This document shows positions 51,251-52,615 of a DNA stretch of 64,000 bases, one piece after another; the first letter of the stretch is position 1; every line of letters starts with the position of its first letter. Position numbers and translations under genes: made by a program. The stretch is from NCBI RefSeq assembly GCF_016406085.1, contig NZ_JAEHFJ010000007.1:1-64000 (forward strand), in the 5' to 3' direction. The DNA comes from Aureibaculum flavum. GTDB lineage: Bacteria > Bacteroidota > Bacteroidia > Flavobacteriales > Flavobacteriaceae. The notes under the pieces are model-generated. The model was not told the origin of the DNA and did no database searches. It was given only the letters and a program-made list of their open reading frames with translations.

Positions 51251-51256
51251 AATAGG

Positions 51257-51293
51257 CCGGGGCGAGAGGATTATTCGCTTCGCTCATGATCCT
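51257..51293 (-). repeat. tRNA-Pro 3'-end fragment, copy A
   Basis: The plus-strand bases 51258-51272 repeat those at the 3' end of the intact tRNA-Pro (acceptor CGGGGCG and the T-stem strand up to GGATT). The match stops in the T-loop. It is replaced by ATTCGCTTCGCTCAT (51273-51287) and then ATCCT, which can re-pair with AGGAT. The discriminator base differs (G instead of A). Confidence 0.75.
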
Positions 51294-51323
51294 GAAGAGG
51301 ATTCGTAGCTAAAGAAAACATTT

Positions 51324-51338
51324 ATTCGCTTTGCTCAT
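51324..51338. repeat. Free copy of the ATTCGCTTTGCTCAT motif
   Basis: The same 15-base motif that replaces the T-loop in fragments A and B (one base different from A, identical to B) occurs here without any tRNA sequence beside it. This shows that it is a unit of its own. Confidence 0.6.
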
Positions 51339-51391
51339 ATTTTTTTTGTTTTATTCAAGTCTCTGAGCAAGCTCAAACTTGTAAAAACAAA

Positions 51392-51419
51392 AAAACTTTT
51401 CATGTTCATGAAAAGTTTT
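51392..51419 (-). terminator. Terminator-like hairpin beside copy B
   Basis: A 13-bp perfect stem (51392-51404 with 51407-51419) around a TT loop is followed on the minus strand by GTTTTTTTGTTTTT. It occupies the same place relative to fragment B as the functional terminator does relative to the intact tRNA. Confidence 0.6.
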
Positions 51420-51425
51420 CTTTTG

Positions 51426-51462
51426 TCGGGGCGAGAGGATTATTCGCTTTGCTCATGATCCT
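51426..51462 (-). repeat. tRNA-Pro 3'-end fragment, copy B
   Basis: Bases 51426-51441 repeat the 3' end of the intact tRNA-Pro including the discriminator base. Again the match stops at the T-loop, and ATTCGCTTTGCTCAT (51442-51456) and ATCCT follow. It is 169 bases from copy A and 183 from the intact gene, so the three are roughly evenly spaced. Confidence 0.75.
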
Positions 51463-51562
51463 TAATGGGCTTTGTTGCTTATTAAAAGCCAAATTGCTAA
51501 CGCAATTTACTGTCTTTTATCATTTGTCCACTTACATTCAACTTTGTTGATGACGTGTTCAA

Positions 51563-51604
51563 ATAAAAAAAGCCTAAAAAATTGTAAAATTTTTTAGGCT
51601 TTTA
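51563..51604 (-). terminator. tRNA-Pro terminator
   Basis: A 13-bp perfect stem (51571-51583 with 51588-51600) is followed on the minus strand by a run of seven T, directly after the mature 3' end of tRNA-Pro. Confidence 0.85.
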
Positions 51605-51608
51605 ATAG

Positions 51609-51683
51609 TCGGGGCGAGAGGATTCGAACCTCCGATCTCTGGTCCCCCAGACCAGCACTTTAACCGGACTAAGCTACGCCCCG
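51609..51683 (-). tRNA. tRNA-Pro (anticodon GGG)
   Basis: The 75-nt gene folds fully. The acceptor stem CGGGGCG/CGCCCCG has discriminator A, and the D-arm is normal. The anticodon stem CTGGT/ACCAG surrounds the 7-nt loop CTGGGGG (U33 present, anticodon GGG). The T-arm stem GGAGG/CCTCT surrounds TTCGAAT. CCA is not encoded. Parts of it are repeated on both sides: its 3' end twice downstream, and its 5' three-quarters, rearranged, upstream of a GIY-YIG pseudogene. The region from 51148 to here holds only those repeats and terminator hairpins. Confidence 0.93.
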
Positions 51684-51931
51684 AATTTTATATTATTATC
51701 TTCTAAAAATCTTTTAGCACCTCTTTTTTTTATTTTTCTTTCAATAGTAACAGCCTCATTTCTAGATAAAACTTCAAATTTGTAAACCAATTTCCAAGGT
51801 ATACCATTTTTAGTAGATTTCACTTGTCCTTTATTATGTCTAATTATTCTTTCTTCAAAATTATTAGTTTGGCCTATATAAAATCTATTCTACAACGAAC
51901 TAAACATTATATATACTTCAAATGCTACCAA
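51674..51931 (-). pseudogene. GIY-YIG nuclease family protein, broken by an in-frame stop
   Basis: Read from a TTG at 51931, 86 codons give a small GIY-YIG domain. FEVYI is the GIY part, FYIGQTNN the YIG part, the Arg/His segment is FEERIIRHNKG, and the metal-binding Glu lies in EAVTIERKIKKRG. Codon 14 is TAG, between the two half-motifs and at a position where related proteins usually have Lys or Asp, so one AAG-to-TAG change explains it. All other key residues survive. The reading frame ends with a TAG that is part of the tRNA-Pro gene, overlapping it by 10 bases. Similar single-domain GIY-YIG frames near tRNA genes are frequent in Flavobacteriia. Confidence 0.8.
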
Positions 51932-51971
51932 CTTTTATTTAATTTTTTATTAAAAATTATTTATATACATT

Positions 51972-52071
51972 GAACCTCCGATCTCCACGCTCACGGCGTG
52001 GCACTTTAATCATGCCTTAGGCTTGATAGACCGGACTAAGTCCTGTCACGCCAATGGCGTGGTACGCCCCG
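51972..52071 (-). pseudogene. Rearranged 5' part of a tRNA-Pro gene
   Basis: Read on the minus strand it has the acceptor strand CGGGGCGTA, the D-arm core CTTAGTCCGGT, TTAAAGTG, AGATC and the T-stem GGAGGTTC, all matching tRNA-Pro, and stops in the T-loop. A 22-nt hairpin insert (stem CACGCC/GGCGTG) follows position 9. A 20-nt hairpin insert (TCAAGCC/GGCATGA, one mismatch) lies in the D-loop. The 17-nt anticodon arm is replaced by another 17-nt arm, CCACG-CCGTGAG-CGTGG, with perfect pairing but C at position 33 and anticodon GTG. It cannot form a normal tRNA. Confidence 0.75.
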
Positions 52072-52096: not shown

Positions 52097-52615
52097 TTAT
52101 CCAACATCATCGTCATCTAAATGCTCTAAAATTTCTATGCCATGCTGTAAAACTATTGAATTTGGTATGGTTATGTTTTCTCCTTTGTCTGTTTTCATAA
52201 AAAGAAAGAATCCTGAAATATCCGTTACCGTTCCAACCCAATCATAATCTTTGTCAATAATTCTAATTCTATGGCCAATTCTTACGGGATGATTAAAAAA
52301 TAAAATCACGCTTGCGGTGAGGTTTGAAAGAATTGACCATTGGGCGATAAAACCAACTCCCAAAACGGCCAAAATTGAAGATATAAAAACGGTAAAATCC
52401 CTAAAGTCAACACCCCATATTATCGCTATAAAAACACCTAACAGAATATATAATATTAAATAATGAAGGTTTAAAATAATCTTTCTTCTATTTAAATCTA
52501 TAGATTTTAAAATGGTAAATTTCTTAATGGCTAGTTTAATTAATTGACCAATAATTAATAAAGAAACAATTAAACCTATTGTTAATAGAATTTGATACTT
52601 ATGGTTAATAATCAT
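52097..52615 (-). CDS. Minimal MscS-type mechanosensitive channel
   Basis: This 172-aa protein has three membrane helices (~8-31, ~48-70, ~74-105). The last contains the pore helix, with Gly/Ala pattern SILAVLGVGFIAQWSILSNL. The MscS beta domain follows (GHRIRI, GTVTDISGFFLFMKTDKGEN, ITIPNSIV). The C-terminal alpha-beta domain that forms the cytoplasmic vestibule in E. coli MscS (286 aa) is absent. It should form a tension-gated channel in the cytoplasmic membrane. Start at the ATG at 52615; monocistronic. Confidence 0.85.
   Translation of the reverse strand: MIINHKYQILLTIGLIVSLLIIGQLIKLAIKKFTILKSIDLNRRKIILNLHYLILYILLGVFIAIIWGVDFRDFTVFISSILAVLGVGFIAQWSILSNLTASVILFFNHPVRIGHRIRIIDKDYDWVGTVTDISGFFLFMKTDKGENITIPNSIVLQHGIEILEHLDDDDVG

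Follow-up and report, generated by a model that had tools for sequence, protein, structure and literature searches.

The systems closest to the element described here, a small GIY-YIG nuclease gene coupled to a whole or partial copy of a tRNA gene, are SegB of phages and the mORFs of fungal mitochondria. We studied an example at the tRNA-Pro locus of Aureibaculum flavum, at 51257-52071 in a stretch of 64,000 nucleotides (nt; positions 1 to 64,000 of contig NZ_JAEHFJ010000007.1, hereafter the window). SegB of phages T4 and T6 is a free-standing GIY-YIG homing endonuclease in a tRNA cluster, and is reported to cut within tRNA genes with the motif RAWTSGAAC and to cause a 718-bp unit of tRNA-Tyr and segB to multiply in tandem (PMC13096335). 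The reverse complement of this motif fits the T-loop, a comparison made in this analysis. Like SegB as presented there, the modules place a GIY-YIG nuclease beside tRNA genes, here of many isotypes. SegB, in contrast, is phage-borne and sits in a tRNA cluster, and the available part of that source contains no description of a tRNA copy broken by a palindrome or of a unit that rebuilds a tRNA (PMC13096335). The module proteins (~77-100 amino acids, aa) are also unlike SegB, their nearest solved sequences being those of UPF0213 and SLX1.

In fungal mitochondria, a mobile endonuclease open reading frame (ORF; hence mORF; LAGLIDADG, or GIY-YIG in atp9) enters a gene and brings a 3' end of its own, pushing the native one downstream, where it stays (PMC3630166). 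One of the two module layouts (3T, described below) shares this logic of a new gene end with the old end left behind. The mORFs concern protein-coding mitochondrial genes, whereas the modules occupy bacterial tRNA genes, lie on either side of them, leave palindrome-broken leftovers and form tandem arrays.

tRNA genes are known as homes of integrase islands and group I introns. Integrase islands use a tRNA gene as their home and leave a tRNA end behind; they share this home with the modules but need an integrase, which the modules do not carry. Group I introns with GIY-YIG genes occur in tRNA genes and share the association of homing endonuclease and tRNA, whereas the module leaves the tRNA unsplit. 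Among solved proteins, the small GIY-YIG proteins of the UPF0213 family (1ywl, 1zg2) come nearest to the module nucleases in sequence and head the list of fold matches in first and second place; to our knowledge these solved proteins are uncharacterised and have no reported link to tRNA. No description of a bacterial module of a GIY-YIG gene and a tRNA gene was found among the matches listed in open-access full-text literature.

The tRNA-Pro locus and orthologous sites in related genomes

Direct reading together with ARAGORN, Rfam and Pfam confirmed the arrangement that an earlier interpretation, made from the letters alone (the sequence-only reading), had described on the minus strand: a 5' tRNA-Pro part (a pseudo-tRNA, or psi-tRNA), a GIY-YIG pseudogene, an intact tRNA-Pro(GGG) and two 3' tRNA-Pro fragments. 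With G000 denoting the window's own genome and other G numbers the compared genomes, the features are:

52097..52615, minus strand: flanking gene adjoining the psi-tRNA-Pro, used as synteny anchor (presumably MscS-like)
51972..52071, minus strand: psi-tRNA, 5' tRNA-Pro part (nt 1-58), by direct reading; ends ..GGAGGTTC in the T-loop
52041..52062, minus strand: first palindromic insert of the psi-tRNA-Pro (CCACGCCATTGGCGTG...), present too in G001 and G002
52010..52029, minus strand: second insert of the psi-tRNA-Pro, imperfect palindrome TCAAGCCTAAGGCATGA, with related sequence in G001 and G002
51985..52000, minus strand: altered anticodon arm of the psi-tRNA-Pro, CACGCCGTGAGCGTGG, by direct reading
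51674..51931, minus strand: GIY-YIG nuclease pseudogene with one in-frame TAG (PF01541, 48.7 bits, cut-off 22.6)
51608..51683, minus strand: intact tRNA-Pro(GGG) (ARAGORN; Rfam 65 bits)
51568..51603, minus strand: terminator-like inverted repeat 3' of the intact tRNA-Pro (repeat scan)
51425..51461, minus strand: 3' tRNA-Pro fragment 1 with palindrome GGATCATGAGC..ATAATCC, not seen in G001 or G002
51256..51305, minus strand: 3' tRNA-Pro fragment 2 with the same palindrome type; decayed homologue in G001 (by eye)

The psi-tRNA is not a clean half, as it carries palindromic D-arm insertions and an altered anticodon arm; the latter was compared with the arm CCACGC..GCGTGG in the intact tRNA-Pro of G004. 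The nuclease frame overlaps the intact tRNA-Pro, and its stop codon is the TAG of GCGTAG. Besides this frame there is no ORF of at least 60 aa, and no integrase, between the window's psi-tRNA and the intact tRNA, which bears out the claim that the unit is unlike integrase islands. An Rfam scan of the window at gathering scores returned tRNA only and no intron RNA, and the tRNA is intact and unsplit.

Five genomes (G000, G001, G002, G013 and G003) have the upstream neighbour gene of tRNA-Pro in common. The distance from this gene to the start of the intact tRNA-Pro is 413 bp in G000, 412 bp in G001 and 424 bp in G002, with the psi-tRNA and the nuclease in between; it is 25 bp in G013 and 52 bp in G003, where neither is present. 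The left flanks of G000 and G013 are closely alike as far as the start of the psi-tRNA, which indicates that the psi-tRNA occupies the start of the original tRNA gene. The nuclease frame is open in G001, contains one stop in G000, and is open in G002 with YIR in place of YIG.

The tRNA-Phe locus of the own genome G000 (L005) begins with an intact tRNA and a terminator. A GIY-YIG gene of 94 aa comes next, then a 3' part of tRNA-Phe into which TCCCGAAGTTTCGGGA is inserted, and then the terminator again; a second copy of the unit lies 377 bp further on. Copies of this module number two in G000, four in G001 and none in G002, G013 and G003, a count of empty sites that rests on loci with a tRNA-Phe in the stretch covered beside the flanking gene; in these three genomes that gene (98-aa query part) is 94-99% identical to its G000 counterpart. 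The G001 copies have the same 377-bp spacing, and the three units compared are identical. Occupied and empty alleles exist at orthologous tRNA-Pro and tRNA-Phe sites. Both the repeated units and the empty sites in relatives to which the sequence-only reading had pointed are found, the former at tRNA-Phe and the latter at both loci.

The association of GIY-YIG genes with tRNA fragments in this genome goes beyond chance. Fragments of the locus' own tRNA of at least 12 nt lie within 400 bp of both GIY-bearing tRNAs (2/2) and of 3/28 tRNAs that have no GIY gene, and 5' fragments of this length were found at 0/28 of the latter (30 of the 35 tRNAs were covered). TTC|G|AAT is indeed the junction at which the 5' part in the window would join the 3' parts, just as the sequence-only reading had it. 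Their interpretation as halves of one event fares worse, because T-loop 3' tails also occur at 3/28 own-genome tRNAs without a nuclease gene; moreover, G001 has the 5' unit with a single decayed tail (by eye) and G000 has one more. The tRNA letters of fragment 1 (AATCCTCTCGCCCCGAC, 51441-51425) and fragment 2 (AATCCTCTCGCCCCGGC, 51272-51256) are each attached to an imperfect palindrome that differs in kind from those inside the 5' part, and no nuclease frame adjoins fragment 1. The most suitable reading of the window's 3' tails is that they are units lacking a nuclease, or remnants of another kind, and do not belong with the 5' part. In G002, a gene that by eye resembles a tyrosine recombinase stands directly after the same tRNA-Pro (L211, from about 2516), which may there be home to an integrase island as well as to a GIY module.

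Distribution, layouts and leftovers of the modules

The window locus is not an isolated remnant. It looks like one representative, now in decay, of a large and widespread group of minimal mobile modules living on tRNA genes. A protein-pattern scan of named genomes with alignment A2, from which the best 80 of 512 relatives were kept (the named set), gave a tRNA gene within 300 bp of the nuclease in 76 of the 80 loci and on the same strand in all 76, the nuclease lying upstream of the tRNA in 61 and downstream in 15. Given that the own genome has 35 tRNAs in 4.75 Mb, chance proximity is estimated at <1%. On the far side of the nuclease, 67/76 linked loci have a tRNA fragment ≥11 nt long, and seven of the other nine show a shorter one by eye. 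Thirteen named loci that depart from this pattern in some respect were inspected by eye: seven Arg(acg) loci keep a 9-nt psi-tRNA start and a palindrome, two lie at contig ends and are flanked by psi-tRNAs, one lies at the start of a contig, two prove to be arrays and the last has decayed.

Across a phylum sample, 166/296 genomes match A2; of 30 loci, one per genome, 27 are tRNA-linked, all 27 on the same strand, with fragments of at least 10 nt in 24. Within a family sample, 88/120 genomes match the tRNA-linked nucleases (alignment A1, E 1e-6), and a same-strand tRNA lies within 350 bp in 49/63 loci (70 were read, and seven overlapping ones were dropped). These surveys support a small tRNA-tied GIY-YIG unit that carries tRNA sequence and keeps an intact tRNA, as the sequence-only reading had supposed. 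The linkage is not a property of GIY-YIG genes in general: 31 of 38 PF01541 loci lie farther than 300 bp from a tRNA gene and seven within that distance, L005 being among the 31 only since its match is the second tandem copy.

The titles of the named set include Flavobacteriaceae, Sphingobacteriales, Chitinophagaceae, Saprospiraceae, Cyclobacteriaceae, Bacteroidales, Ignavibacteria and Chlorobiota, as well as two candidate-phylum genomes, Candidatus Shapirobacteria (L169, tRNA-Asn) and Candidatus Liptonbacteria (L187, tRNA-Phe), whose nucleases are sisters in the tree described below (support 87). The tRNAs of the 140 tRNA-linked rows of that tree represent 12 amino acids, to which the phylum sample adds Cys. 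A search of viral contigs with the tRNA-Phe nuclease found no relative, and alignment A2 matched five loci among viral contigs of IMG/VR, two of them with a tRNA nearby. In these two (L270, L271) the nuclease lies beside tRNA-Arg(acg) or near tRNA-Lys, close to contig ends, and they are possibly host flank of proviruses.

A module consists of a GIY-YIG gene of ~77-100 codons and a whole or partial copy of one tRNA, and spans ~290-450 bp, judged by tandem spacing. Part of the target gene is duplicated around the nuclease ORF, with one copy intact and one displaced. Two layouts occur. In the first, with the psi-tRNA upstream (5T), the order is promoter, psi-tRNA, nuclease and intact tRNA; the leftover is often tRNA nt 1-22, a palindrome and nt 23-35, and the intact tRNA begins a few bases after the nuclease frame or overlaps it. 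In the second, with the psi-tRNA downstream (3T), the order is intact tRNA, terminator, nuclease, psi-tRNA and terminator, and the leftover often has a palindrome ~10 nt inside. The freshest leftovers are almost whole tRNAs, such as a full-length tRNA-Leu split by a palindrome between nt 32 and 33 (L202) and tRNA-Ser leftovers split in the T-loop (L314) or the D-arm (L309), so the ancestor of both layouts may have been tRNA, nuclease and tRNA, with either copy decaying.

Ends and starts of the leftovers vary: some fall in the D-arm or the anticodon arm, others in the variable loop or the T-loop. The T-loop breakpoint proposed for the window fits the Pro(GGG) and Phe units, but other isotypes break elsewhere, and we rejected it as universal.

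The motif TAnnTTTG, which we take to be a Bacteroidota promoter motif, is found within 50 nt upstream of the psi-tRNA in 24 of the 52 named 5T loci with an exact 9-nt psi-tRNA start, upstream of the intact tRNA in 2/52, and in 62/2645 control windows. Judging from this sequence pattern, transcription of the intact tRNA in 5T loci probably starts before the psi-tRNA and passes through the nuclease gene.

Palindromes are far more frequent in psi-tRNAs than in control sequence. With 75 of the 80 named loci covered, a GC-rich palindrome occurs in 60/75 leftover windows, 80/1347 control windows and 4/75 intact tRNAs; the same test found none in 15/75 leftover windows. The palindrome TCCCGA-N4-TCGGGA was rejected as a module-specific feature, being a general genome repeat that recurs 32 times in the own genome (for example at L229, L223, L220 and L227), where the reversed pattern is absent; 20 stretches that span 25 of the 32 places include a tRNA gene in only one. 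By eye, several copies of it sit in the loop of other hairpins, such as a terminator. In seven Arg(acg) leftovers 90.5% of the cells are paired. Six Val leftovers, compared by eye, vary on both sides of the stem at its last pair, which is T-A, G-C or A-T. Template switching can likewise keep palindromes perfect. Selection on leftover RNA structure was considered and is not supported, the pair count in the Arg(acg) leftovers being no better than in shuffles.

Arrays of psi-tRNA units that have no nuclease gene were also found. Beside tRNA-Cys, one of the three nuclease-free own-genome tRNAs with T-loop 3' tails, five 88-bp units each carry a T-loop palindrome, and similar arrays lie beside tRNA-Arg (G089) and tRNA-Met (G085), the last Met unit resembling a tRNA/psi-tRNA hybrid. 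Their locations are:

L265; L099, 820-1200; L104, 980-1355 (minus strand): psi-tRNA arrays without nuclease, units of 88, 78 and 94 bp

Two further own-genome loci (L262, L264) have T-loop 3' tails ~145 nt after tRNA-Arg(acg) and tRNA-Arg(tcg), again with no nuclease gene. Among 91 5T loci, a 3' fragment follows the intact tRNA in 12, and 11 of these fragments start at nt 58-65.

Several contigs end inside or beside modules (L079, L106, L108, L112, L124, L132 and L197), as expected of near-identical repeats, and tRNA counts of draft genomes may be affected by such breaks. Where a psi-tRNA-Val lies between two nuclease copies, ARAGORN calls tRNA-Stop(tta) in L095 and tRNA-SeC(tca) in L107; annotations of this kind in these genomes may be psi-tRNAs.

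The nuclease and its phylogeny

The active-site residues Y5, Y16, R26, H30 and E62 are invariant in sets of 13 and 49 sequences. An ATG-to-stop frame of 77-100 aa is present in 74 of the 80 named loci (frames of 70-105 aa were kept). The AlphaFold2 (AF2) model of the L202 nuclease is one compact GIY-YIG domain of 79 residues (pLDDT 96.1). Its fold matches UPF0213 at E 2.4e-4, and less significantly SLX1 and the catalytic domain of I-TevI; the closest solved sequences are likewise the UPF0213 proteins and SLX1. Searches of NCBIfam and PHROGs yielded nothing beyond endonuclease matches that were weak or fell below the cut-off. Purifying selection keeps the nuclease protein: the ratio of nonsynonymous to synonymous rates (dN/dS) is 0.06-0.31 in 38 of 40 estimable pairs, out of 56 pairs of which 16 were saturated and left out and many others are near saturation.

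We built a tree from 187 nucleases, of which 140 are tRNA-linked. Along this tree the amino acid of the neighbouring tRNA changes 18 times, compared with a mean of 73.2 and a minimum of 68 under shuffling; the anticodon changes 40 times (shuffled 100.2) and the layout 18 times (shuffled 40.35). The tree is of a quick type with one support value, and 40 shuffles were made. It holds one nuclease per locus after removal of ten overlapping loci, frames >250 aa and matches <35 bits; the own-genome tRNA-Phe locus enters twice (L005, L059), and two pseudo-tRNA rows (tta, tca) were relabelled as Val 3T. Single-amino-acid clades that contain both layouts are found for Leu (15 rows, support 96), Pro (8 rows, 97) and Asp (6 rows, 93). 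A separate branch (support 73) unites 31 GIY-YIG genes with no nearby tRNA, mostly of this genus.

The proposed homing-module model and competing explanations

A module whose nuclease is matched to a tRNA, and which enters and rebuilds that tRNA, is in our judgement the best explanation of these patterns and a fairly probable one. The anatomy of the loci, the strand bias, the tracking of isotype, the empty sites, the differing copy numbers, the purifying selection and the enrichment of palindromes are observed; that the nuclease cuts DNA, that the module homes and what the palindrome does are inferences. The nuclease would cut the matching tRNA gene on a chromosome that lacks the module, and repair from a module-bearing copy through tRNA and flank homology would let the module enter. 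A functional tRNA would be rebuilt from old and new sequence, and the surplus tRNA copy would persist beyond the nuclease gene in the form of a psi-tRNA. The GC-rich palindrome that interrupts the psi copy, usually in a loop, would destroy the nuclease site there, as an intron does in classical homing. The rebuilt tRNA would again be a target, and repeated rounds, or repeat slippage, would give tandem arrays. The sequence-only reading is partly supported overall, and its view of the unit as a tRNA-reconstituting element is well supported.

Several observations weigh against the homing-module model. Breakpoints differ even within an isotype, Leu leftovers starting at nt 1 (L202) or ending at nt 57 (L193), and are not uniform, so no single cut site can be read from them. 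A nuclease of ~80 aa with no separate DNA-binding domain is an odd candidate for specificity towards a long site, and dN/dS exceeds 0.5 in two close pairs (1.46, 0.71). As a general genome repeat the palindromes may be passengers, and among the seven Arg(acg) leftovers a two-sided change occurs at 1/12 pairs, a value that 309/500 shuffles reach. No same-strand tRNA lies within 350 bp in 14/63 family loci, at least five of the 14 being at contig ends. Tandem nucleases are uncommon in the named set (4/80 loci), though frequent in the phylum set (9/30); these counts come from the named and phylum sets, as 40 of the regions read in the family sample followed the E-value list and often merged tandem matches. 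In the tree, the clade uniting the other Asn layouts (8 rows) has a support of 15, and three Asn rows (L115, L126, L127), which lack any leftover near the gene, fall among the nucleases without tRNA linkage; the tRNAs of these rows are probably chance neighbours. Isotype tracking could also stem partly from vertical inheritance of stationary loci, which likewise keeps isotype and nuclease together, so tracking alone is no proof of targeting; movement is favoured by amino-acid changes in excess of the minimum of 11, by the empty sites and by the variation in copy number.

The alternative that survives best is a domesticated host function, in which nothing about the unit is selfish: the nuclease and psi-tRNA would serve to control the neighbouring tRNA or keep it in place, perhaps through an action on precursor RNA. 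The purifying selection on the nuclease fits this explanation, as do the promoter motif before the psi-tRNA of 5T loci and the probable transcription of the intact tRNA through the nuclease gene. We nevertheless consider it unlikely, since the modules are present or absent among relatives with clean empty sites, are associated with many isotypes, include pseudogenes such as the window copy and tandem arrays, and have leftovers with no clear covariation.

Passive tandem duplication supposes that unequal recombination between tRNAs, which the sequence-only reading had named as the competing explanation, carries a nearby GIY-YIG gene along and that one tRNA copy then decays. Recombination of this kind probably acts on the arrays. 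The identity of the three compared tRNA-Phe units of G001, the 82-99% identity of neighbouring copies and the nuclease-free psi-tRNA arrays fit passive duplication. It leaves unexplained the nuclease gene itself, its proximity to a tRNA in nearly all named loci and always on the tRNA's strand, nuclease branches that follow tRNA identity, and the 28 nuclease-free own-genome tRNAs that have no 5' fragments, and as a full account it appears to us quite unlikely, slightly more so than a host function.

Ordinary integrase islands, with the fragments as att remnants of tyrosine-recombinase elements that use the tRNA 3' end, may explain some of the palindrome-free T-loop tails, and the recombinase-like gene after tRNA-Pro in G002 and the T-loop tails at GIY-free tRNAs and after 11/91 5T tRNAs fit such elements. 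The 5' psi copy, the nuclease gene and the ~300-450-bp units with no integrase are unaccounted for, which makes islands an improbable source of the modules. It is more improbable still that the palindrome is the prime mover, with hairpin-targeting repeats invading spare tRNA copies and a structure-specific nuclease exploiting the hairpins: the kinship to UPF0213 and the structure-specific SLX1, the palindromes in most leftover windows and the nuclease-free psi-tRNA arrays fit this idea, but palindromes also occur at many places that have no nuclease or tRNA, and a fifth of the leftover windows (15/75) have none.

On the homing-module model, the modules would be a widespread bacterial variant of gene-end-restoring homing elements, apparently undescribed and with predicted cutting activity. 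A more far-reaching proposal, which we offer tentatively and hold to be possible rather than likely, is that a miniature isotype-specific GIY-YIG nuclease and a palindrome-tagged dead tRNA copy form a new minimal class of element in Bacteroidota and some candidate phyla. The palindrome would then be an immunity mark that shields the dead copy from cutting and steers repair so that the module gets copied and a working tRNA is always rebuilt; in layout 5T it would in addition have the host transcribe the nuclease from the tRNA promoter, and the psi-tRNA arrays of 88, 78 and 94 bp would be non-autonomous derivatives resembling miniature inverted-repeat transposable elements (MITE-like).

If the homing-module model is true, the modules would be among the smallest autonomous mobile units, and their short nucleases, each suited to a particular tRNA gene, would form a collection made by nature. 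Some of the broken tRNA copies in these genomes would find their origin in the modules, as might a number of contig breaks. The modules would also offer a test case for a mobile element that lives on needed genes and leaves them working.

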